Program-made: the position numbers and the translations under genes
The notes under the pieces: model-generated
What the model saw: only the letters and a program-made list of their open reading frames with translations
What the model was told of the DNA's origin: nothing
The model's database searches: none
From: Algibacter pacificus
GTDB lineage: Bacteria > Bacteroidota > Bacteroidia > Flavobacteriales > Flavobacteriaceae
Direction: 5' to 3'
Assembly: GCF_008033385.1 (NCBI RefSeq)
Contig: NZ_VOGY01000008.1
Location: 1 to 64,000 of the forward strand
DNA: 64,000 bases
Part shown: positions 18,789 through 35,706 of the stretch, piece after piece
Numbering within the stretch: the stretch's first letter is position 1
How the letters are laid out: every line of letters starts with the position of its first letter

Positions 18789-20810
18789 TTAATCTACATT
18801 ATCATGTAAGAATGAATTATTACGTCTAACCTGTAAATCATCATTATCATCCAAACCAACACTTGTTCTAGAAAAATCATTATCCGATGAATGCCTAGAA
18901 TCTTCTAAGTTTACACCTTGACGTTTGTATGCTGGGGTTTTTTCTATATCATCAATTTTTCCATTATTGAATTTATAGTTAAAATCCTTCATTTTACGAC
19001 GACGTTCTGCAGCACGTTCTTTTAATAATTCTGAAATAGGCGTATTCATTGGATCGATATCTTCTTCCTCAACAACCTCTTGCTTCGTTACTTCTTCTTT
19101 TTGAACCACTTTGCGTTCAAAAACAATATCGTCTTCAACATCTTCAACAACGTCTTCTATTGTTGTTTGTTTTTTATTGAAAGAATCTTCAACTTCTGAA
19201 TAATCATCTAAAGTATATCTAACATCTCCGTTTTCATTCGCTTTTACTTCCGCAGTAACCTCAACATGATCGTTAACCGCCATATCTTTAACATCGTCTT
19301 CAAGACTAAAGGTTACTTTATTCTCTACAACTGGTTCCTTTTTCACCTCTTTTTTAGGCTCATTGCTAATGGGTAAATCGAAAGTTAATGTAATTTGCTT
19401 TTCTTCTTCAAAGTCATCTGTAATCGCATCAAATTGCGTTTTATTTTCTTTTACGTTAACTTCTTTTTTTATAGGACTAATAATAAAATCGTCTTCATCT
19501 TCAACATTCACACGAACTTCGTCGTAAACGACATTCATGTTTTTTAAAATTTCAGAGGTTGGGATTAAATTAATATTTTGTGGCTGCGAAGATAATTTAT
19601 CCTTTCTTATCTCGCTTTTTTCCAAAAAAGAGAATTCCTCCTCGTCATCTAAATCCAATGTATGTTTTACAACTTTAGGTTCTTCCTTTTTTTCAACTGC
19701 CGCTACTGGTGGTGTTTGAACTTCTGGTTTTACTTCTGGCTTAGCTTCTTTAGCTTCAATCTCTTTTTCTTCACTTAAAGAATGAATAACTTTTTTAGTT
19801 TCGGTATTCGAAATTTCATCTTGTTGTTCAATATTAAAACCTGTTGCTATAATAGTTACTGCAATAGATTCTTCTAAGGATTCATCTTCACCTACACCCA
19901 TAATAATGTTAGCGCCATGACCGGCTTCATTTTGAATATGATCATTAATTTCACCTATTTCATCGATGGTAATTTCTTGAGCACCGGAAACAATTAAAAG
20001 CAGTACATTTTTAGCACCAGTAATTTTATTATCGTTTAATAATGGTGAATCTAAAGCTTTACGGATAGCATCTTGTGCACGGTTTTGCCCCGATGCTAAT
20101 GCAGACCCCATAATAGCGGTCCCACTATTACTTAATACGGTTTTAGCATCACGTAAATCGATGTTTTGTGTGTAGTGGTGTGTAATAACTTCTGCTATAC
20201 CACGAGCAGCGGTAGACAGCACTTCATCGGCTTTGGAGAATCCTGCTTTAAAACCAAGGTTTCCATAAACTTCACGAAGCTTATTATTATTTATTACAAT
20301 TAATGAATCTACTACACCTCTAAGTTTCTCGATCCCTTTTTGCGATTGTTCTATACGCATTTTACCTTCAAACTGAAATGGCATAGTAACAATACCTACT
20401 GTTAAAATATCCATATCTTTAGCCATCTTTGCGATAATAGGTGCAGCTCCAGTACCTGTACCACCACCCATTCCGGCTGTAATAAATACCATTTTGGTAT
20501 TAGTATCTAACATTTGAGAAATATCCTCGTAACTTTCTACCGCCGATTGTTCTCCAATATCTGGATTTGCACCGGCTCCGAGTCCTTCGGTTAAATTTAA
20601 ACCTAATTGTATTTTGTTTGGCACCCCACTATTTTGTAAGGCTTGGGCATCTGTATTGCAGACATAAAAGTCGACGCCTTTTATACCTTGTTCAAACATG
20701 TGATTAATGGCGTTGCTACCACCGCCTCCAACGCCGATAACTTTAATGACATTTGATTGATTTTTTGGGAGATCAAACGCGATGCTTTCGATTTCTTTAT
20801 TGCTGCTCAT
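18789..20810 (-). CDS. ftsZ: cell division protein FtsZ
   Basis: FtsZ is the tubulin-like GTPase that forms the division ring. The N-terminal core (about 10-330) has GGGGSNAINHM and the tubulin signature GGGTGTGAAP near residue 115. At 673 residues it is much longer than the usual 380-400. The extra length is an acidic, Lys/Glu/Val-rich disordered linker (about 335-620), a short basic segment with KERAAERRRKMK, and a C-terminal tail ending NNSFLHDNVD. The tail does not look like the proteobacterial DIPAFLR peptide. It is the last gene of the dcw cluster, 57 bases after ftsA. Confidence 0.98.
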   Translation of the reverse strand: MSSNKEIESIAFDLPKNQSNVIKVIGVGGGGSNAINHMFEQGIKGVDFYVCNTDAQALQNSGVPNKIQLGLNLTEGLGAGANPDIGEQSAVESYEDISQMLDTNTKMVFITAGMGGGTGTGAAPIIAKMAKDMDILTVGIVTMPFQFEGKMRIEQSQKGIEKLRGVVDSLIVINNNKLREVYGNLGFKAGFSKADEVLSTAARGIAEVITHHYTQNIDLRDAKTVLSNSGTAIMGSALASGQNRAQDAIRKALDSPLLNDNKITGAKNVLLLIVSGAQEITIDEIGEINDHIQNEAGHGANIIMGVGEDESLEESIAVTIIATGFNIEQQDEISNTETKKVIHSLSEEKEIEAKEAKPEVKPEVQTPPVAAVEKKEEPKVVKHTLDLDDEEEFSFLEKSEIRKDKLSSQPQNINLIPTSEILKNMNVVYDEVRVNVEDEDDFIISPIKKEVNVKENKTQFDAITDDFEEEKQITLTFDLPISNEPKKEVKKEPVVENKVTFSLEDDVKDMAVNDHVEVTAEVKANENGDVRYTLDDYSEVEDSFNKKQTTIEDVVEDVEDDIVFERKVVQKEEVTKQEVVEEEDIDPMNTPISELLKERAAERRRKMKDFNYKFNNGKIDDIEKTPAYKRQGVNLEDSRHSSDNDFSRTSVGLDDNDDLQVRRNNSFLHDNVD

Positions 20811-20867
20811 AACTCTATTTTACTGGGTTTTGTACTAAATATTTTTATTCAATGGGTTTCTTAATCT

Positions 20868-22196
20868 CTACTCTGCGTTATCTAAAAAATCTTTAACGCG
20901 ATCGGTAAGTTTGTCTAGAAAGGAACGTCTTTCTTTAACGGGCTCTACTTTAATTTCTTCCTCTGCTGGTTGCTCTTGGGCTTCTGTAGTGTCTTCAACT
21001 TGCTCTTCTTCAACTTGCTCTTCTATTTTCTTGCGTTCTTGACGTTTTAACCCGTCTAACACTAAACCAACAGCGGTTGCAAAAAGCGGACTAGTAACAT
21101 CTTCATGACTATCTCCTGCTAAATGCTCGTTTGGATAACCTATTCTGGTATCCATTCCGGTAATATATTCTACCAACTGCTTTAAATGTTTTAACTGGCT
21201 TCCGCCACCGGTTAAAACAATTCCTGCAATTAAATTTTTCTTTTGTTCTTCGTGACCATAGTTTTTAATTTCAACATAAACCTGCTCTACAATTTCCACA
21301 ACCCGTGCGTGAATAATTTTCGACAAGTTCTTTAATGTAATTTCCTTTGGTTCGCGACCACGTAAACCAGGAATGGATACAATTTCGTTATCTTTATTTT
21401 CACCCGGCCATGCAGAACCAAACTTTATTTTTAATAATTCGGCTTGTTTTTCAATAATAGAACAACCTTCTTTAATATCTTCTGTAATTACATTGCCTCC
21501 GAAAGGAATCACTGCGGTATGACGGATAATGCCATCTTTAAAAATAGCTAAATCGGTGGTTCCGCCTCCTATATCAATTAATGCTACACCGGCTTCCTTT
21601 TCCTCTTGACTTAAAACAGCATTTGCTGAAGCTAAAGGTTCTAAGGTAATACCCTCTAAATTTAAATCGGCACTTTGTATACAACGTCCAACATTTCGAA
21701 TCGACGATACTTGACCAACCACTACATGAAAATTAGCTTCCAAACGGCCACCATACATCCCGATAGGTTCCTTTATTTCTGCTTGACCATCAACTTTATA
21801 TTCTTGTGGTAATACATGAATAATCTCTTCACCTGGAAGCATCACTAATTTATGCACTTGATTAATTAAACGATCAATATCATCTTCATCAATAACAAGT
21901 TCTGAATTTGGACGTGTAATATAATCGCTATGCTGTAAACTTCTGATATGCTGTCCTGCAATACCAACCGTAACACCATCTATTTTCATTCCGGCTGCCG
22001 CCTCTGCTTCTTGAACGGCTTGTTGAATGGACTGAATGGTTTGTGTAATATTATTTACTACACCGCGGTGCACACCTAAACTTTTAGACTTTCCAATGCC
22101 TAAAATTTCAAGTTTACCGTAATCATTTTTACGCCCAATCATGGCCACAATTTTTGTGGTTCCTATATCTAATCCTACTGATATGTTATGCTCCAT
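20868..22196 (-). CDS. ftsA: cell division protein FtsA
   Basis: This is the actin-like membrane tether for FtsZ, 442 residues long. N-terminal SVGLDIGTTKIVAMIG is the phosphate-1 motif, ALIDIGGGTTDLAIF near residue 204 is phosphate-2, and GIVLTGGGSQLKHL near 325 is the adenosine motif. The C-terminus has an acidic repeat region (about 390-418), followed by the amphipathic membrane-targeting helix SFLDKLTDRVKDFLDN. A perfect 15-base tandem duplication in the acidic region (20993-21022) encodes a repeated EEQVE-type pentapeptide. The start lies 3 bases after the ftsQ stop. Confidence 0.98.
   Translation of the reverse strand: MEHNISVGLDIGTTKIVAMIGRKNDYGKLEILGIGKSKSLGVHRGVVNNITQTIQSIQQAVQEAEAAAGMKIDGVTVGIAGQHIRSLQHSDYITRPNSELVIDEDDIDRLINQVHKLVMLPGEEIIHVLPQEYKVDGQAEIKEPIGMYGGRLEANFHVVVGQVSSIRNVGRCIQSADLNLEGITLEPLASANAVLSQEEKEAGVALIDIGGGTTDLAIFKDGIIRHTAVIPFGGNVITEDIKEGCSIIEKQAELLKIKFGSAWPGENKDNEIVSIPGLRGREPKEITLKNLSKIIHARVVEIVEQVYVEIKNYGHEEQKKNLIAGIVLTGGGSQLKHLKQLVEYITGMDTRIGYPNEHLAGDSHEDVTSPLFATAVGLVLDGLKRQERKKIEEQVEEEQVEDTTEAQEQPAEEEIKVEPVKERRSFLDKLTDRVKDFLDNAE
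20993..21022. repeat. 15-bp tandem repeat x2 inside ftsA
   Basis: Two perfect copies of CTTCAACTTGCTCTT lie end to end and keep the reading frame. They encode the acidic spacer before the membrane-targeting helix of FtsA. Confidence 0.85.
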
Positions 22197-22199
22197 GGC

Positions 22200-22919
22200 T
22201 TATATTTTGGTACATACTACTTGGTTATCGAATTGCAAATTTACCTTGCTATAATTATCTAACGTCTTTTCTTTGATGCTTTTTTGATAAAATGCTTTCA
22301 AATTATTAATTTTTTTGTTTAATAATTTCAAATCACCCAATTGCACTAAAAACTTACATTGTCTCATTTTTAGAAACAATTCCTTAGTTTCATTTTGATG
22401 AATTTCTATCACATTTGTTTTTAAAAAAGGATCCTCTTTAATTTTAGTCGCTATTTTAAAAATATTTTTCAAATCATTTTTATCCACAAATCCAGTAACA
22501 AGAGGCACTCTTGCCGAATAATTACTTGATAAAGGCATAGATAAACCTTCATCATCAATATAATAGGATACGTCTGTATTAACTCTCGCTAATGGCGTTT
22601 TTTGCTCTATTTCAGCATTAAGTGTGCCATTTACTGTAACATAAACTTCAGCACGCTTAATCATGGGGTTAGATTTAAGGGTATGCTCTAACTTATTCAA
22701 ATCTAAAGTTTCTTTAGTAACATTTTTAGCCCCGCCATAATTTTGTATTAACAATTTACTAACAGTCTCATTAGTAATAAATAAGTTGTTTTCTCCAACA
22801 AATGTTATGGCTGGACTAGAAACCAATCTAGCGTTATTTCTGTCCGATGCAAAAGCAAATAGGAACACCACCAAACCGAATAAACCGATCATCTTTATGT
22901 AATTCCAATTAATTTTCAC
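22200..22919 (-). CDS. ftsQ: cell division protein FtsQ/DivIB
   Basis: This 239-residue single-pass inner membrane divisome protein has a short cytoplasmic N-terminus, one helix (about 9-25), a POTRA-like segment (about 35-105) and the FtsQ/beta domain. Sequence divergence is high, as is normal for FtsQ, so the call rests partly on position between murC and ftsA. The start is GTG at 22919, which overlaps murC by 11 bases. The next Met (residue 10) would cut into the membrane helix and is less likely. It is part of the dcw operon. Confidence 0.93.
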   Translation of the reverse strand: MKINWNYIKMIGLFGLVVFLFAFASDRNNARLVSSPAITFVGENNLFITNETVSKLLIQNYGGAKNVTKETLDLNKLEHTLKSNPMIKRAEVYVTVNGTLNAEIEQKTPLARVNTDVSYYIDDEGLSMPLSSNYSARVPLVTGFVDKNDLKNIFKIATKIKEDPFLKTNVIEIHQNETKELFLKMRQCKFLVQLGDLKLLNKKINNLKAFYQKSIKEKTLDNYSKVNLQFDNQVVCTKI

Positions 22920-24261
22920 GACACAACACTTTTTTTATAGGTTTTACTTGCTCTCCAATATCTCCTGCTCCAATGGTTATTATAATATTGGCTTTACTTT
23001 TTTTAACTTCAAATAGCATGTCGTCCTTACTAACCAGTTTTTTATTATTACAGGTTAATAGCCCCAATAGCCAATGAGATGTCACGCCTTCAATTGGCAA
23101 TTCTCGTGCTGGATAAATATCCAATAACATCACTTCATCGAACTGCGATAAACTTTTCGCAAAATCATGAATAAAATCTTTTGTTCTACTGAATAAATGC
23201 GGCTGAAAAATAGCCAATACTTTTTTATTTGGATACATTTCCCGCACCGCTTGATACACAGCATTTATTTCTTCGGGATGATGTGCATAATCATCGATAT
23301 ACACCAAATCGTCCGTTTTAATTTGATAAGTAAACCGACGTTTCACACCTTTATAAGACGCCAACCCTTGACGTAAACTTTCAATAGAACAACCATATTC
23401 CAAAGCCATAGCTAAAGCCAATAATGCATTGGATAAATTATGTCTTCCGGGCAGGTTAAATTCCAAATTTTCTAACAGAGCATTTGGAGTTTTCACATCA
23501 AACACATAGCTGCCATTTTCTATTTTTATATTCTGAATGGTATAATCAGAATCATCCTCAATACCGTAAGTAATTCCTTTTAAAGGCAATCCGTTTTTAA
23601 TAAATAACTTCCCGTTGGGTTTGATACGTTTTGAAAAATCTTCAAAAGTCTTTTTTAATTCTAAAGCATCGCCATAAATATCCAAATGATCGGCATCCAT
23701 AGAGGTTATTCCCGCTAAATCTGGGGATAACGTTAAAAACGAACGATCAAACTCATCGGCTTCAACAACTGAAACTTCCGTCCCTTTTAAAATTAGGTTT
23801 GAATTATAGTTTTCACTTATTCCTCCTAAAAAAGCCGTAAGCGGCACTTCGCATTCATGCATTAAATGCCCAAGAATACTAGTTGTTGTTGTTTTTCCAT
23901 GCGTTCCTGCCACAGCCAAACACACCGTGTTTTCAGTAATTAATCCTAAAATTTCAGAACGCTTTAAAACCTTAAAACCGTTGTCTTTAAAATAATTTAA
24001 TTCCAAATGTCCTTTAGGCACCGCTGGGGTATAAACCACCAAAGTATTTTCAGTGTTTAAAAACGTTGAATTAATATGTTTTATAGCATCCTCAAAATGA
24101 ACTGGCACACCTAAATCCACCAAACTATCTGTGATAGGAGTTTGGGTTTTATCATAACCGGCAACCTGCTTATTATTCGCAACAAAATAACGCGCCAAAG
24201 CACTCATGCCAATGCCGCCAATGCCAATAAAATAGATGTTATGTACGTTGTCTAAATTCAT
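22909..24261 (-). CDS. murC: UDP-N-acetylmuramate--L-alanine ligase
   Basis: MurC adds L-Ala to UDP-MurNAc in the cytoplasm using ATP. The 450-residue protein opens with the Rossmann-like motif IYFIGIGGIGMSALA and has the ATP loop AGTHGKTTTTS near residue 118. DDYAHHPEEI near residue 310 is the conserved histidine motif of MurC/Mpl, and HLFSRTKDF follows. It overlaps ftsQ at its 3' end and abuts murG at its 5' end without a gap. The order murG-murC-ftsQ matches other dcw clusters. Confidence 0.98.
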   Translation of the reverse strand: MNLDNVHNIYFIGIGGIGMSALARYFVANNKQVAGYDKTQTPITDSLVDLGVPVHFEDAIKHINSTFLNTENTLVVYTPAVPKGHLELNYFKDNGFKVLKRSEILGLITENTVCLAVAGTHGKTTTTSILGHLMHECEVPLTAFLGGISENYNSNLILKGTEVSVVEADEFDRSFLTLSPDLAGITSMDADHLDIYGDALELKKTFEDFSKRIKPNGKLFIKNGLPLKGITYGIEDDSDYTIQNIKIENGSYVFDVKTPNALLENLEFNLPGRHNLSNALLALAMALEYGCSIESLRQGLASYKGVKRRFTYQIKTDDLVYIDDYAHHPEEINAVYQAVREMYPNKKVLAIFQPHLFSRTKDFIHDFAKSLSQFDEVMLLDIYPARELPIEGVTSHWLLGLLTCNNKKLVSKDDMLFEVKKSKANIIITIGAGDIGEQVKPIKKVLCREN

Positions 24262-25356
24262 TTATTTGTTTAGAAGCTTTTCAACTTCATTTACGATATC
24301 TTTTGTTGCATTTACTAATGCTAATTTTTTAATATTTTGCCCTAATTCGTTTCTTCGCTGGGGTGTAGCAATAAGTTGCGAAAACTTATTCTCAAAGTCT
24401 GCTTGTAAATCCTCTTCCTTAATAATCAAAGCCGCATCTTTATCTACGACCGCCATAGCATTTTTGGTTTGATGATCTTCTGCTACATTTGGAGACGGTA
24501 TAAAAATAACTGGTTTTCCCACAATACAAAGCTCGGAAACAGAACTTGCTCCCGCTCTTGAAATCACCACATCTGCAGCTGCATACGCTAAATCCATATT
24601 ATTTAAAAACTCATGAACCTGTACGTTTTTAGTATGTCCATAAATTTTGTATTGTTTATAATACAACTTTCCACATTGCCAAATAACTTGAACATTTTGG
24701 GTATCTAGAAAATCTAATTTTTTTTCAATTAACTGGTTAATTCGTCGAGCACCTAAACTTCCACCTATAACCAACAGCGTTGTTTTGCTTGGTTTTAAAT
24801 CGAAATGCTTTATAGCTTCATCTCGTTTTGTATCAATATCCAACAAACCTTGACGTACAGGGTTTCCTGTTTTTATTATTTTTTCTTGAGGAAAAAACCG
24901 TTCCAAATTATCGTAAGCCACACATATTTTTTTAGCCTTTTTAGCTAAAAATTTATTGGTAATTCCTGGAAATGAATTTTGCTCCTGAATTAAAGTCGGA
25001 ATTCCTTTCGCATTTGCTATTTGCAACAGCGGTCCACTAGCAAATCCGCCCGTACCAATAGCCACGTCAGGTTTAAACGATCTTACAATGTTATTAGCTT
25101 TCCACAAACTACTTATCAACTTAAACGGAAATAACAAATTCTTTAAAGTTAGCTTACGCTGAATACCCGAAATCCACAATCCTTTTATGTTATACCCAGC
25201 TTGAGGTACCATATCCATTTCCATACGATCGCTCGCACCAACAAATAAAAATTCAGCATCAGGAAAACGCAACTTTAGTTCGTTCGCAATAGCAATAGCC
25301 GGATAAATATGTCCGCCTGTGCCACCTCCTGATAATATAATTTTATATGGTTTCAT
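24262..25356 (-). CDS. murG: UDP-GlcNAc transferase, lipid II synthesis
   Basis: MurG adds GlcNAc to lipid I to make lipid II on the inner face of the membrane. The 364-residue GT28 protein has the glycine loop [16 protein letters not shown] near the N-terminus, a second loop [10 protein letters not shown] near residue 195, and the C-terminal donor-binding segment [17 protein letters not shown] near 265. Its stop is directly next to the murC start. A 50-base gap separates it from ftsW. Confidence 0.98.
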
Positions 25357-25406
25357 ACCTTTTCAACCTCCCCCTTAGAGAGAATTCATTATTTTTAATT
25401 CAATAT

Positions 25407-26600
25407 TTATAAAGCTTCCGAAAGGATTTCTAACGGATTATCCTCGTCTATTTCTTTTTCTTTAATTTCTTCTCGTCTTGCACTTACACTTAAAATAATA
25501 CCGATAGCTAAACATGTCATCCAAATAGATGTTCCTCCGCTACTAATTAGCGGTAACGTTTGTCCTGTAACAGGAAACAGCTCGACAGCTACGGCCATAT
25601 TTATTAATGCCTGAAAAACAATAGGCAAGCCTACGCCCAACACTAATAATTTTCCAAAAACAGTATCCGATTTTTGAGAGACAATAACAACCCTAAACAA
25701 CAACCACATGTATAAAACCATGATAGAAACCCCGCCTATTAAACCGTATTCTTCAATAATTATGGCAAAAATAAAATCGGAAGATGATTGTGGTAACGCG
25801 TGTTTCTGGATACTTTTTCCCGGACCAACACCGGTTACCCCACCAGAGGCAATCGCTATTTTAGCCTTTTCAATTTGATAATCCGCATCGGAATCCTCAT
25901 CATTCGAGTAGTTTTTTATTCTATTTTCCCAAGTGGTTACTTTCACATTTAATGGTCCCGTGGTTAACTTTGCTGCCATAATAAAAAGCACTAAAGCGAC
26001 TAAACCCGAACCTAAAATTATAGCAATATAACGAATAGGATACCCGCCTAAAAACACTAAAATAATTACCATTAAAAACATAATGGCAGCGGTAGAAAAA
26101 TTAGACGGCAAAATTAAACCTAATATAACAAATACGGGCACCCAAAGCGGTAAAATTGACGATTTAAAAGAAATCACCTCATCTTTTATTTTCGACATAT
26201 ACCGAGCCACATACACCATTAAAACAACAAATGCCAAAGTTGATGTTTGAAACGACAACCCCACTACAGGAATTTTAATCCAGCGACTCGCACTAGCGCC
26301 ACCCATTACAGTACCCTGCATCATAGTAATAACTAGGAGCACAAAGACCACCGGAAGCATAAATATCGATAGCCCCCTAAAATAACGGTAGGGTATTTTA
26401 TGCACGCCATACATAATAACAAAACCTAAAAACAAGTGCATAAAGTGTTTTACGAAAGAGATAAATGTATTTCCATCGTATTTACTATACGCCAAATCGC
26501 TCGCTGCACTATACACAGGCAAGAAAGACAAAATAGCAAGCAGCGCTACTATTGCCCAAATTAACCGATCTCCTTTTATGTTTTTAAATAATGCTTGCAT
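25407..26600 (-). CDS. ftsW: SEDS glycosyltransferase FtsW
   Basis: This is a 397-residue polytopic membrane protein of the SEDS family, which polymerises lipid II at the septum with its cognate penicillin-binding protein. About ten membrane helices can be seen. Family signatures include GGVTGVGPGKSIQKHALPQSSSDF with the following FAIIIEEYG (about 253-285), and the late motif PLISSGGTS (near 350). The catalytic Asp region of SEDS enzymes lies in the large loop. The position between murD and murG distinguishes it from RodA. Confidence 0.97.
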   Translation of the reverse strand: MQALFKNIKGDRLIWAIVALLAILSFLPVYSAASDLAYSKYDGNTFISFVKHFMHLFLGFVIMYGVHKIPYRYFRGLSIFMLPVVFVLLVITMMQGTVMGGASASRWIKIPVVGLSFQTSTLAFVVLMVYVARYMSKIKDEVISFKSSILPLWVPVFVILGLILPSNFSTAAIMFLMVIILVFLGGYPIRYIAIILGSGLVALVLFIMAAKLTTGPLNVKVTTWENRIKNYSNDEDSDADYQIEKAKIAIASGGVTGVGPGKSIQKHALPQSSSDFIFAIIIEEYGLIGGVSIMVLYMWLLFRVVIVSQKSDTVFGKLLVLGVGLPIVFQALINMAVAVELFPVTGQTLPLISSGGTSIWMTCLAIGIILSVSARREEIKEKEIDEDNPLEILSEAL

Positions 26601-26654
26601 TAATTTTTAACTAATTACTTTTAACTTCTTACCAATAGATAAAGTAAGCCTATA

Positions 26655-27992
26655 TTATAAATTTCTAACCGCGTTTTTAAACTGACGACCTCTATCTTCG
26701 TAATTTTCAAATAAATCGAAACTTGCACATGCTGGCGATAACAACACAGTATCTCCAGACTCAGCAATTTTATAAGCTATTTTTACAGCTTCGCTCATAA
26801 ATTGCGTTTCCACAATAGTATCTACCATATTCCCGAAAGTGCTCATTAACTTTTCGTTTTCGGCACCTAAACAAATAATAGCTTTTACTTTTTCGTTTAC
26901 AAACTGAAATAATTCTTGATAATCATTTCCTTTATCTACACCACCAACAATCCAAACCGTTGGCGCGCTCATACTTTCTAAAGCAAAATAAGTTGCATTC
27001 ACGTTAGTCGCCTTAGAATCGTTTATATATTGGACTTTATTAATTTTTACAACCTCCTCCAATCTATGCTCCACGCCTTGAAAATTCTCTAAACTTTCAC
27101 GAATAGTTTGTTTTCTAATTTTTAATAAATGCGCAACAGTAGAAGCCGCCATTGCGTTCTTAACGTTGTGTTTACCTTCTAATGCTATATTTTTAGTTGA
27201 CATAATAATTTGGTTGTTATCTATTGTTATTTTAATATTCTCTTTGTCTAAATAGGCGCCATTTTCTATTTTTTTCACTAATGAAAACGGCAATAATGTG
27301 GATTGAACCGGATTGTTTTTTAAATGATTTACAATCACAGGATCATCGGCATCATAAATTAAATAATCGTCTCGCGACTGATTCATTGCTATCCTAAATT
27401 TTGATGCGATATAATTCTCAAATTCATAATCATATCGATCTAAATGATCGGGTGTAATGTTTGTGATAACAGCAATTTTCGGTTTAAAATCAATGATATC
27501 ATCCAACTGAAAACTGCTAATTTCAAGTACATAATTTTCAAAATCATCTTCTAAAATCTGCTTCGCAAAACTATCGCCAATATTACCCGCTAAACCCACA
27601 TTTAATGCCTCTTTTAAAATGTGATGCGTCAATGTTGCCGTGGTTGTTTTACCATTACTTCCAGTAATACCAATGAGTGTTGCATTGGTATATTTGGATG
27701 CAAACTCAATTTCTGAAACCACCGTAATCCCCTTTTCACGAATTTGTTTTACCAAAGCCACTTTATCAGGAATCCCAGGACTTTTCATAACGATGTCGGC
27801 ATTCAGAATTTTTTCTTCCGAATGGCTTTCATCTTCCCATGCAATATTATTATCTACAAGAACTTTTTTGTAATCCTCTTTTATTTTTCCCTTATCGGAA
27901 ACAAAAACGTCAAAGCCTTTAGCTTTAGCCAAAAGCGCGGTACCTACACCACTTTCTCCTCCTCCTAATATGACTAATCGTTGTTTTGACAT
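26655..27992 (-). CDS. murD: UDP-N-acetylmuramoylalanine--D-glutamate ligase
   Basis: MurD adds D-Glu to UDP-MurNAc-Ala. The 445-residue Mur ligase has LVILGGGESGVGTALLA at the N-terminus, the P-loop TGSNGKTTTATL near residue 112, the carbamylated-lysine region, and NDSKATNVNAT near residue 315 in the C-terminal domain. It lies between mraY and ftsW in the dcw operon with gaps of about 50 bases. Confidence 0.98.
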   Translation of the reverse strand: MSKQRLVILGGGESGVGTALLAKAKGFDVFVSDKGKIKEDYKKVLVDNNIAWEDESHSEEKILNADIVMKSPGIPDKVALVKQIREKGITVVSEIEFASKYTNATLIGITGSNGKTTTATLTHHILKEALNVGLAGNIGDSFAKQILEDDFENYVLEISSFQLDDIIDFKPKIAVITNITPDHLDRYDYEFENYIASKFRIAMNQSRDDYLIYDADDPVIVNHLKNNPVQSTLLPFSLVKKIENGAYLDKENIKITIDNNQIIMSTKNIALEGKHNVKNAMAASTVAHLLKIRKQTIRESLENFQGVEHRLEEVVKINKVQYINDSKATNVNATYFALESMSAPTVWIVGGVDKGNDYQELFQFVNEKVKAIICLGAENEKLMSTFGNMVDTIVETQFMSEAVKIAYKIAESGDTVLLSPACASFDLFENYEDRGRQFKNAVRNL

Positions 27993-28038
27993 TTCTTTTT
28001 AATTTCACACTTCGCTTTCGTGGAAATAATACCTTTTG

Positions 28039-29280
28039 TTATCTTATTTTTAATGTTACAATCGACAGAATAGCCAGCAAAATACCAACAATCCAAAATC
28101 GTGTTACAATTTTACTTTCGTGATATCCCGATTTTTGATAATGATGATGCAACGGCGACATTTTGAAAATGCGACGGCCTTCACCATATTTCTTCTTCGT
28201 ATATTTAAACCAACTTACCTGCATGACTACCGATAAATTTTCGGCTAAAAAGATGCCACAAAGCACAGGAATTAACCATTCTTTACGCACTGCAATTGCA
28301 ATTACCGCTATAATACCACCAATAGTTAAACTGCCCGTATCGCCCATAAAAACTTGAGCCGGATAGGTGTTATACCAAAGAAAACCAACTAAAGCTCCAA
28401 CAAACGCAGCGATATAAATAGTAATTTCTTCGATACGCGGGATATACATAATATTCAAGAAATCCGAAAACACGATATGTCCAGATACATAAGCAAATAT
28501 CCCCAGAGTGAATACAATAATAGCCGAGGTTCCTGCCGCCAGACCATCAATACCATCGGTAAGATTTGCGCCATTAGACACGGCAGTTATAATAAAAATA
28601 ACGGCGATTATAAAAATAATCCATGAATATTTTGCTAACGACGGACTTATCCAAGTGACTAAATCGGCATAATCAAACTCATTGCCTTTAACAAACGGAA
28701 TTGTTGTTGTGGTCGATTTTATTTCTTTCTGAAACAACTTCGTTGGCGCTATATTAGGGTTTTCGGCTAAAAGCACACGTTGCTGTTCTACAGGTAATTT
28801 CTCCTTAATAGTAACACCTTGATGAAAATACAAGGTACTTCCAACAATAATCCCTAACCCTACTTGACCTAATATTTTAAAACGCCCTTTTAAGCCATCT
28901 TTATCGTTTTTAAACTTCTTTAAATAATCGTCTATAAATCCGATAATACCCATCCAAACCGTGGTAACAATCAATAAAATGATATAGATATTATCCAATC
29001 TCGCTAACAACAACACAGGAAGTAACGTTGCTAAAATGATAATAATACCACCCATCGTCGGTGTTCCTGCTTTTTCTTTTTGGCCTTCTAAACCTAAATC
29101 ACGAATGGTTTCACCCATTTGTTTTTTAGCCAAAAAGCTAATTATTTTTTTACCATAAATTGTAGAGAATAGCAAAGCAAATATCATTGCCAATGCAGCT
29201 CTAAAGGTTAAAAACCCAAAGAGTGATGCCCCAGGAAGCTGGAACTGCTTTTCTAAATATTCAAATAAGTAATACAGCAT
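28039..29280 (-). CDS. mraY: phospho-MurNAc-pentapeptide transferase
   Basis: MraY makes lipid I from UDP-MurNAc-pentapeptide and undecaprenyl phosphate in the inner membrane. The 413-residue protein has about ten helices and the family motifs FIDDYLK near residue 115, [12 protein letters not shown] near 240, MGDTGSL near 315 and SPLHHHYQK near 375. It is about 50 residues longer than E. coli MraY. The extra length is an insert (about 155-205, including [16 protein letters not shown]) between two helices. The gene is in the dcw operon between murE and murD. Confidence 0.98.
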
Positions 29281-29363
29281 TCGGTTATTTCTTTCTTGTT
29301 ATTAATTTATGGTTATCTCTATTTTCTATATGCTTTTCTCTGTTTTCTCTTTCTTTCAAAAAC

Positions 29364-30827
29364 TCACTTCTGTAATTGCTTTAATAATTCTTGAACGGTT
29401 TCGTAATCATCGAAATGAAAACGCTCGCCTTTAATTTCCTGATAATCCTCGTGCCCTTTTCCTGCAATTAAAATAATATCGTTAGGTTGCGCCATTTGGC
29501 AAGCCGCTTTAATCGCTTGTTTTCTATCTGAAATGGTTAAGGCCTTTTTAAAATTTTGAGGCTCTACCCCTTTTTCAATGGCGTCTAAAATAGCTTGTGG
29601 CTCTTCACTTCGCGGGTTATCACTCGTAAAAATTACTTTGGTACTTAAGGCCGTAGCAATATGCCCCATTTTAGGTCGCTTGGTTTTATCGCGATCTCCA
29701 CCACAACCTACAATCGTAATGAGTTCTTCATTTTTAGTACGGATACTATTTATGGTTTCTAATACATTTTTCAATGCATCGGGTGTGTGTGCATAATCGA
29801 CAATAGCCGTTATTTTTTCATCTGAAATAAAATACTGAAAACGTCCGCTAACGCTTTTCAAATCGCTAATTAACCGAAGAATTTCTACTTTTTCTAGCCC
29901 TAACAATTCCGCTGTAGCGTAAATAGCTAACACATTATAAGCATTGAAAGCCCCAATTAATCGTGTCCAAACTTCGTTGTCATTAACCTTAAGCAATAAA
30001 CCACTTAATCTGTTTTCTAGAATTTGCGCTTTATAATCGGCATACCCTTTTAAAGCATACGTGTATTTTTTAGCTTTTGTATTCTGAAGCATAATCGCTC
30101 CATTTTTATCATCGGTATTCACCAAAGCAAACGCGGTTAACGGTAAGCCATCGAAAAAACGTTTTTTAACATCGCGATACTCCGCAAATGTGTTGTGATA
30201 ATCTAAATGATCGTGCGATAAGTTGGTAAAAATACCACCTTCAAAATGCAACCCTTCCGTTCTAAATTGATGAATACCATGAGAGCTTACTTCCATAAAA
30301 CAAAACTCAACACCAGCAGCATTCATTTCACTTAAATACTTATTGATGGTTAAAGAATCTGGCGTGGTATGCGTAGCTTTATACTCCACAGTATCTACCA
30401 ATATTTTCACAGTTGAAAGCAAACCTACCTTATACCCTGCGTTTTTAAATAACTGAAATAACAAACTAGCAACCGTGGTTTTCCCATTAGTTCCAGTTAC
30501 ACCAACAAGCTTTAAATTCTCGGACGGCACACCATAAAAATTCGATGCCATAATTGCCATGGCTTTACTCGAATTATCAACTTCAACATAAGTAATCCCA
30601 GCCACTATATTTTCAGGAGTGGCCTCACAAACAATAGCCATGGCACCATTTTTAATAGCAACATCTATATAATCATGTCCATCCACAACACTGCCACGGA
30701 TAGCCACAAAAACATCACCTTTAACAATGCTACGAGAATCGAAATGAATGTTATTCACATCCATACTCGTATTTCCCACAACAGCATTTAAGGTTACCTT
30801 ATATAATATGTCTTTTAATGCACTCAT
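29364..30827 (-). CDS. murE: UDP-MurNAc-tripeptide synthetase (meso-DAP type)
   Basis: MurE adds the third amino acid to the peptide stem. The 487-residue protein has the P-loop VTGTNGKTTVASL near residue 110 and, near residue 400, the specificity loop SDNPRSEEP. DNPR is the meso-diaminopimelate signature, unlike the loop of lysine-adding enzymes, so this organism should have DAP-type peptidoglycan. Its start codon overlaps the ftsI stop in an ATGA arrangement, which points to translational coupling. Confidence 0.98.
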   Translation of the reverse strand: MSALKDILYKVTLNAVVGNTSMDVNNIHFDSRSIVKGDVFVAIRGSVVDGHDYIDVAIKNGAMAIVCEATPENIVAGITYVEVDNSSKAMAIMASNFYGVPSENLKLVGVTGTNGKTTVASLLFQLFKNAGYKVGLLSTVKILVDTVEYKATHTTPDSLTINKYLSEMNAAGVEFCFMEVSSHGIHQFRTEGLHFEGGIFTNLSHDHLDYHNTFAEYRDVKKRFFDGLPLTAFALVNTDDKNGAIMLQNTKAKKYTYALKGYADYKAQILENRLSGLLLKVNDNEVWTRLIGAFNAYNVLAIYATAELLGLEKVEILRLISDLKSVSGRFQYFISDEKITAIVDYAHTPDALKNVLETINSIRTKNEELITIVGCGGDRDKTKRPKMGHIATALSTKVIFTSDNPRSEEPQAILDAIEKGVEPQNFKKALTISDRKQAIKAACQMAQPNDIILIAGKGHEDYQEIKGERFHFDDYETVQELLKQLQK

Positions 30828-32833
30828 GATGCTTTTAATGTCACGATTTGATTATCTTTTAACTTGGTACTTTTATTAACCGATTGCGCTTTTACAATAC
30901 CATTCCCATTAAGTTTCACCTTAATTTTTACATCCATATTTTCCAAAAGCGCTAAAGCATCCATAGCAGGTAAGCCCACAACATTTGGCATAATGGTTTT
31001 ATAGGTTTTTGTGGTTTCATAAAAGTTATTATACTCCTCTTGCACCGAAGCCACTTTTACATCTAATGAATTGACTTCATCAATTAAAGGGGTATCGGTA
31101 AATATTTTTTGAGCAATACGTTTAAAAACGGGCCCCGTAACATCGGCACCATAAAACCCTTTTTTGGTACTTGGTTTATGAATAACAACGATGCAAGAAT
31201 ACTTTGGATTTTCAGCTGGAAAGTAACCAGCAAAAGAAGAAATATACTTTCTATCTTTCCGCCATTCTTCATAATTACCATATTCTGTTCTTGCCGTTCC
31301 TGTTTTTCCTGCCATAGAAAAATTTGGCGAATAGAGTTTTCTACCCGTACCACGAACCACAATATTTTTCATGATTTCCTGAATTTCTCCAAGGGTTTTA
31401 TCCGAACAAATCTTTTTATTAATCACTTCCTTTTCAAAAACCTCAATCTCTTTATCAAACTCTTTAACCGCTTTAATGAAACGCGGTTTTACCATTTCAC
31501 CATTATTTGCAATGGCATTATAAAACGTTAAGGTTTGTAGCGGTGTAATTCGTAAATTATATCCGTAAGCCATAGAAGGCAAAGCATTTCTACTCCAAAT
31601 TTTATCGCCAGGCTCAGGAATTACAGGATTACCTTCCCCCATAATAGACACCCCTAACGGCTTATTTAAACCCCAACTTTTTAATCTATCTATAAACTTC
31701 TCTGGGTTTTTAGAATAATTTTCATCAATGATGGTAGCTAAACCAATATTAGAAGACACTTCCAAAGCACGAGCTGCCGAAATTTCCCCATGACCATGAG
31801 AATCACTTATGGTTCTACCGTAAAAACGCTTACTTCCACGTTTGGTATCAATAACCGTAGACGTATCAATCACTCGATCTTCCAAAGCCGCCATTAACGC
31901 CATAACTTTAAATGTGGAGCCTGGCTCGTGCGATTCCCAAACCGCGTAATTTCTTTTCTCGTAATATTCGCCACTTTTAGTTTTTCCTAAATTGGAAATA
32001 GCCTTAATCTCCCCTGTTTTAACATCCATAACCACAACACAACCATGTTCAGCTTCGTAATACTCCAACTGCCCCAATAATGAATGATGAGCGATATCTT
32101 GAATATTTACATCTATAGTGGTATAAACATCATAACCATCTTTTGGCTCCACTTGGTTATAATCTGTAAGTGGTTTCCATTTATTTTTTCCAATTTTTTG
32201 CTTTAAACGCTTCCCATCGGTACCACGTAAATACTTTACCCCAAAAGCACCGTCGATTCCGGCACGCGTTACATTGCCATCTTCATCAAAACGCTCATAA
32301 CCAATAGAACGCTGCGCAATAGCCCCCATTGGGAATTCCCTTTTCGTGTTCTGACTTACAATTAATCCACCAGGAATTGCCCCTAATTTTAATAGCGGAA
32401 ACCCTCTAAAACGCACATAATCGGTATAATTAATATTTTTTGCCAACAGCAAATATTGATTTTTATTAGCACGCGCTTTTCGAATCGCTTTTTCATAATA
32501 CGACGCCGATTTACCTGAATATTTTGAAAGTGAATCAGCTAAAGGCCCTACAAATTCTTCAAACTTTTTTGTTGGCGACACCACCGCATCTATAGCAATA
32601 TTATATTTTGGAATTGAAGTTGCCAACAACCCACCTTTATCGGAATACACATTACCACGATTAGCAGGAATAGTAATATTTTGAACGTCGCGTTTCTCAA
32701 CAAGCGCTCGATACTTATCACCTTGCAAATACTGAATACTAAACAATTTAAACAGCACAGCAAAGCCGAACACAAACATGCATCCCGCTATAAAATATAA
32801 CCTGTTTAATATGCCTTTCTCGTTTACTGCCAA
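30824..32833 (-). CDS. ftsI: septal penicillin-binding protein (FtsI/PBP3) with PASTA domain
   Basis: This 669-residue class B transpeptidase crosslinks septal peptidoglycan. It has an N-terminal membrane helix (about 9-28), a PBP dimerisation domain (about 50-215), the transpeptidase domain with Ser306 in GSTFK, an SSN motif near residue 365 and KTGTAR near residue 515, and one C-terminal PASTA domain (about 605-669, starting MPNVVGLPAMDAL). A PASTA domain is absent from E. coli FtsI but common in this phylum. It lies between ftsL and murE and should partner FtsW. Confidence 0.97.
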   Translation of the reverse strand: MAVNEKGILNRLYFIAGCMFVFGFAVLFKLFSIQYLQGDKYRALVEKRDVQNITIPANRGNVYSDKGGLLATSIPKYNIAIDAVVSPTKKFEEFVGPLADSLSKYSGKSASYYEKAIRKARANKNQYLLLAKNINYTDYVRFRGFPLLKLGAIPGGLIVSQNTKREFPMGAIAQRSIGYERFDEDGNVTRAGIDGAFGVKYLRGTDGKRLKQKIGKNKWKPLTDYNQVEPKDGYDVYTTIDVNIQDIAHHSLLGQLEYYEAEHGCVVVMDVKTGEIKAISNLGKTKSGEYYEKRNYAVWESHEPGSTFKVMALMAALEDRVIDTSTVIDTKRGSKRFYGRTISDSHGHGEISAARALEVSSNIGLATIIDENYSKNPEKFIDRLKSWGLNKPLGVSIMGEGNPVIPEPGDKIWSRNALPSMAYGYNLRITPLQTLTFYNAIANNGEMVKPRFIKAVKEFDKEIEVFEKEVINKKICSDKTLGEIQEIMKNIVVRGTGRKLYSPNFSMAGKTGTARTEYGNYEEWRKDRKYISSFAGYFPAENPKYSCIVVIHKPSTKKGFYGADVTGPVFKRIAQKIFTDTPLIDEVNSLDVKVASVQEEYNNFYETTKTYKTIMPNVVGLPAMDALALLENMDVKIKVKLNGNGIVKAQSVNKSTKLKDNQIVTLKAS

Positions 32834-32840
32834 TGTATTA

Positions 32841-33161
32841 TTAGTCTTTTTGAGATTTTACTTTTATTTTTTTCGCTGGCGTTGTTGATGTTGCCAGCCC
32901 TTTTTCCTTCATTTTTTCTAACACGGTCGATTCCATTTTTAACCGTTGTAATTTAGAACGTCCGTCCACAAATGCCGAACGCATTTCTTTTACTTCATTA
33001 TTAAGTCTCGATATTTCATACACCTTTTTATCAGCACTATGCGAACTCGCAATCATGATAATCGCTAAAGCGGAAATAAACAAAATCATGCGCCAATTTT
33101 TAAATGAATCGTCGCTTACCAAAAACGTTCCTTTTAATATGTCGTATATACTATTTTTCAT
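32841..33161 (-). CDS. ftsL: FtsL-like divisome protein
   Basis: This is a 106-residue small bitopic membrane protein with a cytoplasmic N-terminus of about 25 residues, one helix (about 27-43, MILFISALAIIMIASS) and a periplasmic leucine-zipper-like coiled coil (about 50-90). Sequence similarity to E. coli FtsL is low, but the size, topology and position between rsmH and ftsI are diagnostic. The frame runs up to a GTG at 33182 with further ATGs at 33176 and 33167. I chose 33161 (MKNSIYDIL) as the conserved start. Confidence 0.88.
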   Translation of the reverse strand: MKNSIYDILKGTFLVSDDSFKNWRMILFISALAIIMIASSHSADKKVYEISRLNNEVKEMRSAFVDGRSKLQRLKMESTVLEKMKEKGLATSTTPAKKIKVKSQKD

Positions 33162-33290
33162 CCCCATTTTAAACATAAACACAACTCTCTAAAAACCAGA
33201 AAACCGCTCCTATTTTAACTAAGACACGGATTCTTCATCTAAACAAACGCTGTATCTTATATACTAATTCCTATTTTCTATTCCTTTAAA

Positions 33291-34187
33291 TTAAGCCTTC
33301 GTTGCAATTCTTAACTTTGCACTTCGCGCCCTATTATTTAACTTAATCTCCTCAGCAGAAGGAACAATTAACCTTCCAACCTTTTTAAGCGGGACTTCAA
33401 AATTCCCAAACATATCACGCTCTGGCTCACCTTCAAACAAACCGTTTCTAATAAAACGTTTTACTAATCTATCCTCTAAAGAATGGTACGATATAAAACT
33501 CAACCGTCCATTTTCATTTAAAATCTCTGGTGTTTGAGACAAAAATTCTTTTAAAGCCTCAATTTCTTGATTCACCTCAATTCTAATAGCTTGATATATT
33601 TGCGCCAAAACTTTATTCTCGTGTCTTGGTGGTAAAAATTTCCGCAAAACCATTTTTAATTGCTCACTTGTAACAATTTGCTCATTTTCCCTATGTTCAA
33701 CAATTAACCTTGCCATAGCTGGCGCTGCACGCAACTCTCCATACTGCAAAAACACATCTTTAAGTTGCTCTTCCTCATACTCATTAACCACATGAAATGC
33801 AGACAATGCTTTTTCCTGATTCATACGCATATCTAAATCGGCCTCAAAACGGGTAGAGAAACCACGTTCAGCTACATCAAATTGATGGGACGATACACCA
33901 AAATCTGCCAAAATACCGTCTACTTTTTTCACACCGTGAAATCGTAAAAACCGTTTTATAAATCTAAAATTCTCATTTATTAATGTAAATCGAGCATCGT
34001 CAATAGTATTTTCAAGAGCGTCCAAATCTTGATCGAAAGCGAATAATTTTCCGTTTTCACCAAGTCGTTTTAAAATTTCTTTACTGTGTCCGCCACCACC
34101 AAAAGTAACATCCACGTAAACGCCGTCTGGTTTTATATTTAAACCATCTACCGTTTCTTTTAACAGTACCGGATTATGATATTCCAT
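33291..34187 (-). CDS. rsmH: 16S rRNA (cytosine-1402-N4)-methyltransferase
   Basis: RsmH (MraW) methylates C1402 of 16S rRNA using S-adenosylmethionine. The 298-residue product starts MEYHNPVLLKETVDGL and has the SAM loop VDVTFGGGGHSKEIL near residue 25, followed by ADFGVSSHQFD near residue 100 and FISYHSLEDRLVKRFI near 235. Earlier in-frame ATGs at 34196 and 34199 would deepen the overlap with mraZ from 14 to 26 bases. It is the second gene of the dcw cluster. Confidence 0.97.
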   Translation of the reverse strand: MEYHNPVLLKETVDGLNIKPDGVYVDVTFGGGGHSKEILKRLGENGKLFAFDQDLDALENTIDDARFTLINENFRFIKRFLRFHGVKKVDGILADFGVSSHQFDVAERGFSTRFEADLDMRMNQEKALSAFHVVNEYEEEQLKDVFLQYGELRAAPAMARLIVEHRENEQIVTSEQLKMVLRKFLPPRHENKVLAQIYQAIRIEVNQEIEALKEFLSQTPEILNENGRLSFISYHSLEDRLVKRFIRNGLFEGEPERDMFGNFEVPLKKVGRLIVPSAEEIKLNNRARSAKLRIATKA

Positions 34188-34644
34188 AGTCTTCATCATC
34201 TTGCCCCATAACTTCCTCGGCTAAATCTGCAAAATCTAACGCCGCATCGTCAATGGCTTGTTCATATAAATCTTTATCCCAAATTTCAATTATATTGATA
34301 GCCGAAGCCACTACAATATTTTTGGAAATATTAGCAAAAACCGTTAAATCTTTCGGCACTAATAGTCTCCCATTAACATCAATTTCAATAATTTTTGCTC
34401 CCGCAGTAAACCTTCGAATAAAATCGTTGTTCTTTTTTTTAAACTTATTAAGTTTATTCATTTTCTGCATTAACGCTTGCCATTCTGCCATAGGATATAA
34501 CTCCAAACACTTTTGAAAAACCGATCTTCGCAGCACAAAACCATCGTCCAACACCGTTGATAACTGCTTTTTTATAGCAGCCGGCATCATAAGTCTGCCT
34601 TTGGCATCAACCTTACAATCGTATGTTCCTGTAATTAAGCTCAC
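34174..34644 (-). CDS. mraZ: transcriptional regulator MraZ
   Basis: This 156-residue AbrB-fold DNA-binding protein has two tandem MraZ domains. Each carries the DxxGRL motif: CKVDAKGRLMMP near residue 10 and IDVNGRLLVPKDL near residue 90. In other bacteria MraZ assembles into rings and represses or activates the dcw operon by binding short direct repeats before its own gene. Here three such repeats lie at 34698-34724, next to the promoter. It is the first gene of the cluster. Confidence 0.97.
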   Translation of the reverse strand: MSLITGTYDCKVDAKGRLMMPAAIKKQLSTVLDDGFVLRRSVFQKCLELYPMAEWQALMQKMNKLNKFKKKNNDFIRRFTAGAKIIEIDVNGRLLVPKDLTVFANISKNIVVASAINIIEIWDKDLYEQAIDDAALDFADLAEEVMGQDDEDYGIS

Positions 34645-34677: not shown

Positions 34678-34685
34678 CAAAGATA
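34678..34685 (-). promoter_or_regulatory. mraZ/dcw promoter, -7 element TATCTTTG
   Basis: The minus strand reads TATCTTTG, an exact TAnnTTTG match, 33 bases before the mraZ ATG at 34644. The -33 region falls inside the direct repeats at 34698-34724. Confidence 0.7.
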
Positions 34686-34697
34686 TTGAAAATATTA

Positions 34698-34724
34698 CCA
34701 CATTTTACCACTTTATACCACTTT
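34698..34724 (-). promoter_or_regulatory. putative MraZ operator, three 10-bp-spaced repeats
   Basis: On the minus strand the sequence holds AAAGTGG, AAAGTGG and AATGTGG, each separated by three bases, so the repeat period is exactly 10 bp, about one helical turn. The period matches known MraZ boxes (TGGGN repeats with 5-base spacers in E. coli; AAAGTG[T/G]N3 repeats in Mollicutes). The boxes cover the expected -33 region of the mraZ promoter. Confidence 0.75.
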
Positions 34725-34885
34725 GTTAACAAGTTTTTGTTCAAACGCATTCATCTATCGATTTAACAAGCAAAAACACGTAGGTAATTCCCCTTTTTTG
34801 ATGTTATTATCCTCTTTTAAATTCTTAATTTTGCAACTAGAACAAAATTGTAAAACAATATTATAATTGAGCAGAGTGTAAACCC

Positions 34886-34941: not shown

Positions 34942-35706
34942 ATGACGCATCGTTTAAAAAAGGAAGGAAACTTCAACTATATTGAAGTCGGAGAAGGCAC
35001 ACCTATTATTGTGCTACATGGATTAATGGGAGGACTGAGTAATTTTGACGCTGTTACTAATTTTTTTAGTAAAAAAGGGTACAAAATACTTATTCCAGAA
35101 TTACCTATTTACACCATGTCCCTACTAAAAACAAATGTAAAAAGCTTCGCAAAATACCTAAATGATTTTATAATTTATAAAGGTTTTAATGAAGTTATAC
35201 TTTTAGGGAATTCACTTGGTGGCCATATTGGCTTATACCATACCAAAATGTACCCAGAAACTATAAAAGCTTTAATAATCACAGGGAGTTCTGGACTTTA
35301 TGAAAACGCTATGGGAGGCAGCTACCCTAAACGTAGTGATTATGAAGTAATTAAAAAGAAAGCACAAGATGTTTTTTACGATCCTGAAATAGCTACAAAA
35401 GAGATTGTAGACGAGGTTTACGAAACCGTAAACAACCGAAACAAACTAATAAAAACCTTAGCGATAGCAAAAAGCGCTATTCGACATAATATGGCGAAAG
35501 ATTTACCTACCATAAATACACCTACCTGTATTATTTGGGGTAAAAATGACACCGTAACACCTCCAGAAGTTGCTGAAGAATTTAATGAACTTTTACCAGA
35601 TTCAGAGCTACACTGGATTGACAAATGTGGACACGCTGCCATGATGGAACACCCAGATGAATTCAACAAAATCTTAGATTCTTGGCTAGAAAAAAGACAA
35701 TTCTAG
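34942..35706 (+). CDS. alpha/beta fold hydrolase
   Basis: This 254-residue cytoplasmic hydrolase has the oxyanion-hole segment VLHGLMGGLSNFD near residue 24, the nucleophile elbow GNSLGGHIG (Ser near residue 95), an acid in WGKNDTVTPPE (near 202) and the catalytic His in DKCGHAAMMEHP (near 232). It belongs to the broad esterase/lipase group and no substrate can be assigned. There is no signal peptide. It is followed after 47 bases by engB, probably in the same transcript. Confidence 0.9.
   Translation: MTHRLKKEGNFNYIEVGEGTPIIVLHGLMGGLSNFDAVTNFFSKKGYKILIPELPIYTMSLLKTNVKSFAKYLNDFIIYKGFNEVILLGNSLGGHIGLYHTKMYPETIKALIITGSSGLYENAMGGSYPKRSDYEVIKKKAQDVFYDPEIATKEIVDEVYETVNNRNKLIKTLAIAKSAIRHNMAKDLPTINTPTCIIWGKNDTVTPPEVAEEFNELLPDSELHWIDKCGHAAMMEHPDEFNKILDSWLEKRQF

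Follow-up and report, generated by a model that had tools for sequence, protein, structure and literature searches.

A putative MraZ-box operator joined to a DnaA-box-like element at the mraZ promoter of Flavobacteriaceae

The window (the whole 64-kb stretch of Algibacter DNA that was analysed) carries mraZ as the first gene of a cluster on one strand. The cluster runs as far as ftsZ (18789), measures 15.9 kb and may form a single transcript (Table 1). The two DxxGR motifs of the window MraZ, DAKGR and DVNGR, correspond to DSKGR and DGAGR of E. coli MraZ. The other members of the cluster are rsmH/mraW, an ftsL-like gene, a penicillin-binding protein gene, a Mur ligase gene at the murE position, mraY, murD, ftsW, murG, a Mur ligase gene at the murC position, a gene at the ftsQ position, ftsA and ftsZ. 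A Pfam match was obtained for nine of the ten dcw open reading frames scanned, the one without being that at 22200-22919; ftsA and ftsZ were assigned by NCBIfam. An earlier sequence-only reading had placed a repeat array before mraZ at the head of a dcw cluster of about 16 kb, which agrees with the length found here and with the identification of MraZ by both Pfam and TIGR00242. Divergently from mraZ lies an alpha/beta-hydrolase-like gene (34942-35706, plus strand), followed by engB; the intergenic region of 297 bp is common to mraZ and the hydrolase-like gene, so that an operator within it could act on the latter too.

Table 1. Positions of the mraZ promoter features and of the dcw cluster in the window, with the basis of each assignment
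Feature	Position	Strand	Basis
mraZ, GTG start (34644-34642)	34174..34644	-	PF02381 twice; TIGR00242 above cut-off; two DxxGR motifs
Rest of dcw cluster	18789..34199	-	Same-strand ORFs, Pfam, NCBIfam
Putative -7 element of the mraZ promoter, Bacteroidota type (TAnnTTTG), TATCTTTG	34678..34685	-	Sequence; TAnnTTTG in 58/58 genera
Putative MraZ box 3, AATGTGG	34698..34704	-	Sequence reading; GTGG core kept in 55-genus logo
Putative MraZ box 2, AAAGTGG	34708..34714	-	Sequence reading; GTGG core kept in 55-genus logo
Putative MraZ box 1, AAAGTGG	34718..34724	-	Sequence reading; GTGG core kept in 55-genus logo
DnaA-box-like 9-mer, TTGTTAACA (family form TTATYAACA)	34724..34732	-	Window sequence; slot filled in 49/58 genera

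The minus-strand stretch 5′ of mraZ, TTGTTAACAAAGTGGTATAAAGTGGTAAAATGTGGTAATATTTTCAATATCTTTG, contains three GTGG cores and the putative -7 element TATCTTTG. The cores span 34721-34698 at an exact 10-bp period, and the three heptamers that the sequence-only reading had reported before mraZ are thus recovered on the minus-strand letters. GTGG-N6-GTGG-N6-GTGG occurs once in the window, with both strands scanned, whilst 100 dinucleotide shuffles of the window gave a mean of 0.00 and a largest count of 0. The same reading had set the array 13 bases before a perfect TAnnTTTG element; the element is there and is perfect, and 13 is the distance from 34698 to 34685, the gap itself being 12 bases. Two of the three boxes fit the AAAGTG[T/G] form known from Mollicutes, the third reading AATGTGG. 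In the window's own genome the triple pattern has three matches, namely the one at mraZ and two overlapping ones within a GTGGTGCTTG repeat, and its reversed control has four; the two-box pattern has five matches (one at mraZ) versus five for its reversed control, which is background. The signal therefore depends on the third box, on position and on conservation.

Conservation was assessed in 60 Flavobacteriaceae genomes, one per genus, 58 of which gave an mraZ match. The remaining two (G027 and G061) gave none; one of them is a 2.6-Mb single-contig genome, and mraZ may therefore be lost there. Conservation among close relatives, on which the sequence-only reading had staked its proposal, is found: the perfect triple of GTGG at period 10 stands upstream of mraZ in 49 of the 58 genera (nine are without it), at least two cores at this period are present in 57, and periods of 5-9 and 11-15 gave no array at all. 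The antisense strand of the same 58 genera yielded one two-box case and letter shuffles 0.00. TAnnTTTG follows box 3 by 10-12 bp in every genus. The sequence logo was built from 55 of the 58 genera, three falling below the anchor score, and the counts given on 58 were made after all had been re-anchored.

In a wider set of family genomes, and among the matches listed, the triple array is present in 172 of 199 genomes versus 18 for the reversed control, with more than one match in ten of the 172, the window's own genome included. The array hence looks like a nearly dedicated mraZ site, and no wider MraZ regulon of triple boxes is seen among those matches. Direct repeats at 10 bp with a core of GTGG/TGGG type, a position before mraZ and dcw, and a conserved occurrence largely confined to mraZ together mark it as a probable MraZ operator. 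Among more distant upstream regions, at least two boxes are present in both of the two at order level, in 10 of 15 at class level and in 42 of 53 at phylum level. These counts derive from 80 of 108 mraZ matches outside the own genome (81 were fetched, of which L225 gave no tblastn match); of the 27 left out, 22 were low-identity matches of a single family (f15).

The position of the array relative to the core promoter differs within the phylum. Within 45 nt upstream of the array, TTGAC was found in 30 of 42 arrays from other classes and in none of 57 from Flavobacteriaceae; TAnnTTTG within 40 nt downstream was found in 0 of 42 and in 57 of 57, respectively. As a control, TTGAC lies within 40 nt downstream in 4 of the 57 family arrays, and order- and class-level relatives taken together have TTGAC upstream in 0 of 12 and TAnnTTTG downstream in 7 of 12. 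In E. coli K-12, GTGG was read at -43, -33 and -23 from the mraZ start codon, behind a TTGACA stretch, and this triple at a 10-bp period upholds the earlier comparison with MraZ boxes of other phyla. Judged from these motifs, the Flavobacteriaceae array would lie upstream of the core promoter, over the -33 region, whereas most arrays of other classes would lie downstream of TTGAC in the manner of E. coli. Core and period are the same and the array is on the other side of the promoter, so the operator kept both whilst its place changed.

Directly upstream of box 1, and with one base in common with it, lies the 9-mer TTGTTAACA, whose end is 38 bp from TAnnTTTG; neither this element nor the changed side of the promoter figures in the sequence-only reading. 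The logo reads TTATYAACAA immediately 5′ of box 1, and one position of the 9-mer is C in 44 of 55 genera (1.8 bits) against an AT-rich background. Counted from the first TGG, TT[AG]TYMACA stands at -12 in 42 genera and at -13 in seven, 49 of 58 in all; nine have no 9-mer there. Since both the window form TTGTTAACA and the family form TTATYAACA differ from the canonical DnaA box (TTATCCACA or TTATNCACA), the element is classed as DnaA-box-like; among the mraZ loci listed, exact TTATCCACA fills the slot at L046 only. In some genera (L152, L153, L160, L161 and others) box 1 is preceded at 21 bp, a distance of about two helix turns, by a further GTGG, with the 9-mer sitting between it and box 1.

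The 9-mer also occurs in pairs elsewhere in the family. Across the 60 genomes, direct TTATYMACA pairs with 1-30 bp between their members number 125, and the reversed control gives 43; a period of exactly 20 bp accounts for 64 of the direct pairs and one of 21 bp for 12. Inverted pairs, searched in one of their two arrangements, occur in 8 of the 60 genomes. Pairs 19-21 bp apart amounted to 79 listed, of which 77 were located (two were not fetched), and duplicate sites (L307/L336 and L311/L340) were removed from the counts. Of those located, 49 stand 84-119 bp before the gene for HU (hup), each in a different genome, 21 stand 67-80 bp before dnaB, and seven lie elsewhere; the assignments of HU and DnaB come from Pfam matches in the window's own genome. 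The hup pair at L307 (G000:C2:116624-116652) is TTATTAACA-N11-TTATCAACA, 20 bp apart, and by exact pattern a direct pair precedes the HU gene in 49 of 60 Flavobacteriaceae genomes. The dnaB pair at L335 (4620-4648, G000:C6:136619-136647) is TTATTCACA-N11-TTATTAACA; a pair at dnaB is also present in G166 and G116, and none was seen in G037, G108, G158 or G104. More GTTAAC repeats lie downstream of the pair at L335. Pairs 12 bp apart were found, as single examples, about 70 bp upstream of the class I ribonucleotide reductase small-chain gene nrdB (L356), about 345 bp upstream of the anaerobic reductase gene nrdD (L315) and upstream of a tyrosine recombinase gene read as Xer-like (L337). Three tight TTATYAACA repeats in L338 were dropped, as they lie within a coding repeat.

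On balance we lean towards reading the 9-mer, from its sequence and its company of genes, as a DnaA box that would give the dcw cluster a replication-linked input. Besides L046, exact TTATCCACA, the E. coli DnaA consensus, fills the slot at dnaB in L375, L425 and L426, and at nrdB it occurs twice in L356; the sites stand at replication and nucleotide-supply genes (dnaB, hup, nrdB and nrdD), as is expected of a DnaA regulon. Searches for the origin were negative within their scope: no 9-mer cluster lies beside dnaA in 20 genomes, no TTATCCACA cluster marks oriC in three complete genomes, and GC skew from 20 samples of 15 kb in one genome was too noisy to place the origin. In several genomes TTATYAACA does occur some 500 bp before dnaA, but inside a coding frame, and was set aside as chance. 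For Elizabethkingia, PMC8994065 gives a predicted oriC that is distant from dnaA and whose boxes differ from TTATCCACA by at most one mismatch. In an order-level relative, five TTATCCACA boxes occur within 170 bp of intergenic DNA (L357 1501-1668; G158:C1, about 1941001-1941168), a candidate oriC or other DnaA-titrating site; despite this cluster, the 9-mer near mraZ in the same genome is TTATTAACA, and 22 bp separate it from the first GTGG.

DnaA residues 399, 423 and 432-435 read bases, according to PMC5043019, and the recognition-helix position equivalent to E. coli 435 is Ala in 16 of 17 Flavobacteriaceae DnaA proteins and Ser in G116. Co-variation of a helix residue with A or C at position 6 of the box looked suggestive at L046 and then failed: it is ruled out by G166 (Ala), with TTATCCACA at dnaB, by G108 (Ala), with TTTTCCACA at mraZ, and by G158 (Ser), with TTATTAACA near mraZ.

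The strongest competitor to DnaA, to which we give somewhat less than even odds, leaves the MraZ boxes genuine and has TTATYMACA read by another factor, be it a regulator of replication and nucleoid genes or the RNA polymerase alpha subunit on an AT-rich upstream element. It would account for the prevalence of A at position 6, which is C in the E. coli consensus, for the main pairs at hup and dnaB lying 20-21 bp apart and not at the period of 11-12 preferred by E. coli DnaA (direct boxes 2-3 bp apart; PMC11317965), and for the null results beside dnaA and in the complete genomes. It is set against the occupation of the slot by TTATCCACA and TTATTCACA in several genomes, the replication and nucleotide-supply functions of the marked genes, and the 3-bp-gap pairs near nrdB and nrdD, given that nrdA and nrdD are E. 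coli DnaA targets (same source); a loose AT-rich element, in particular, fits poorly with the fixed C at position 8 and the strong single-position bias. That the 9-mer is a further contact of MraZ itself might be suggested by its fixed place at -12 or -13 from the first TGG, but we consider this very unlikely, as it also occurs at hup and dnaB without MraZ boxes: GTGG-N6-GTGG is found in 2 of 83 pair loci, and the 9-mer is therefore not part of the MraZ array.

For the three boxes, the reading as an MraZ operator with autorepression is the one we adopt, at a probability of about 0.8, with binding and repression deduced from position and from what is reported for E. coli and M. genitalium. MraZ might instead activate or fine-tune the promoter from upstream, as could be thought from an array placed before the -7 element and not downstream as in E. 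coli, and from the increase of FtsZ on MraZ overexpression in Mycoplasma gallisepticum, as quoted in PMC8475190. We regard this as improbable, given that the array sits where the -33 element would be and that repression is what PMC8475190 reports for E. coli and, by mutant RNA-seq, for Mycoplasma genitalium. Chance repeats, or repeats purely intrinsic to the promoter, would suit the background level of the two-box pattern in the own genome, and yet deserve hardly any credence beside the conservation, the specificity for one period and the likeness to the E. coli array.

Under the favoured reading of the boxes as an autorepressive operator, an MraZ oligomer would touch all three GTGG cores from the same side of the DNA helix, as their 10-bp period would allow. 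With TAnnTTTG taken as centred on -7, the oligomer would cover the mraZ promoter from about -50 to about -24. With the array over the -33 region, blocking of sigma is the simplest inference, and mraZ and the dcw genes would be repressed together. The 9-mer, set edge to edge with box 1, would be a second input to the promoter, most likely from DnaA, which would bind beside the first MraZ protomer or compete with it, and which could aid or hamper RNA polymerase or dislodge MraZ. Taken as a whole, the scheme is an even bet in our estimate: Flavobacteriaceae DnaA, via the altered box TTATYMACA, would mark the promoters of mraZ, hup, dnaB, the ribonucleotide reductases and an Xer-like recombinase, and at mraZ, where the box is fused to the MraZ operator, DnaA and MraZ would meet and tie the supply of division proteins to replication initiation.

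To our knowledge, the link between replication and division has hardly been studied in Bacteroidota, and such a link becomes testable through the conserved MraZ array of the dcw promoter, to which a DnaA-box-like element is fused that recurs at hup, at dnaB and near nrd genes. That an operator has moved, inside a single phylum, from the downstream to the upstream side of the core promoter is also a natural experiment in the rebuilding of a repressor site under a changed promoter type. MraZ boxes as such are already known. The titles and abstract openings covered by a literature search mention neither MraZ boxes in Bacteroidota nor a DnaA regulon in Flavobacteriaceae; the occurrence of the boxes in Bacteroidota would be new subject to the phylum surveys within the two founding MraZ papers, which lay outside the scope of that search. 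What is new, in our view, is the combination of an upstream array with the DnaA-like element, and the recurrence of this element at hup and dnaB, for which titles and abstract openings likewise gave no report.

Among known systems, the E. coli PmraZ, whose MraZ boxes are those of Eraso et al. 2014 as described in PMC8475190 and PMC4446571, is like the window promoter in its three GTGG cores at a 10-bp period, in standing before mraZ and then dcw, and in an MraZ with two DxxGR motifs. Its array is, however, downstream of a TTGACA promoter (-43 to -23 from the start codon), whereas that of the window is upstream of TAnnTTTG; GTGG is followed by G in E. coli, and by T in 47 of 55 Flavobacteriaceae genera; and the E. 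coli array has no nearby DnaA-like box, there being one antisense TTTTCCACA at -244. The Mollicutes site, AAAGTG[T/G] direct repeats according to Fisunov et al. 2016 as quoted in PMC8475190, resembles that of the window in AAAGTGG at two of three boxes and in being a single chromosomal operator before mraZ, but the window differs in its third box, in its Bacteroidota promoter type and in the adjacent DnaA-like box.

The E. coli DnaA regulon (PMC11317965) includes nrdA and nrdD, with a linker AAG at nrdA, and the 3-bp-gap direct pairs near nrdB (L356, also with linker AAG) and nrdD (L315) are alike in this respect; unlike in E. coli, hup, dnaB, mraZ and an Xer-like gene are marked as well, the pairs at hup and dnaB have their boxes 20-21 bp apart, and position 6 is mostly A. 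A precedent for the two elements on one promoter is E. coli mioC, where MraZ is reported to bind a site overlapping a DnaA box (PMC4446571, citing Eraso et al.), a comparability that we infer. mioC lies near oriC, whereas here it is the dcw promoter itself that carries the arrangement, conserved across the family.
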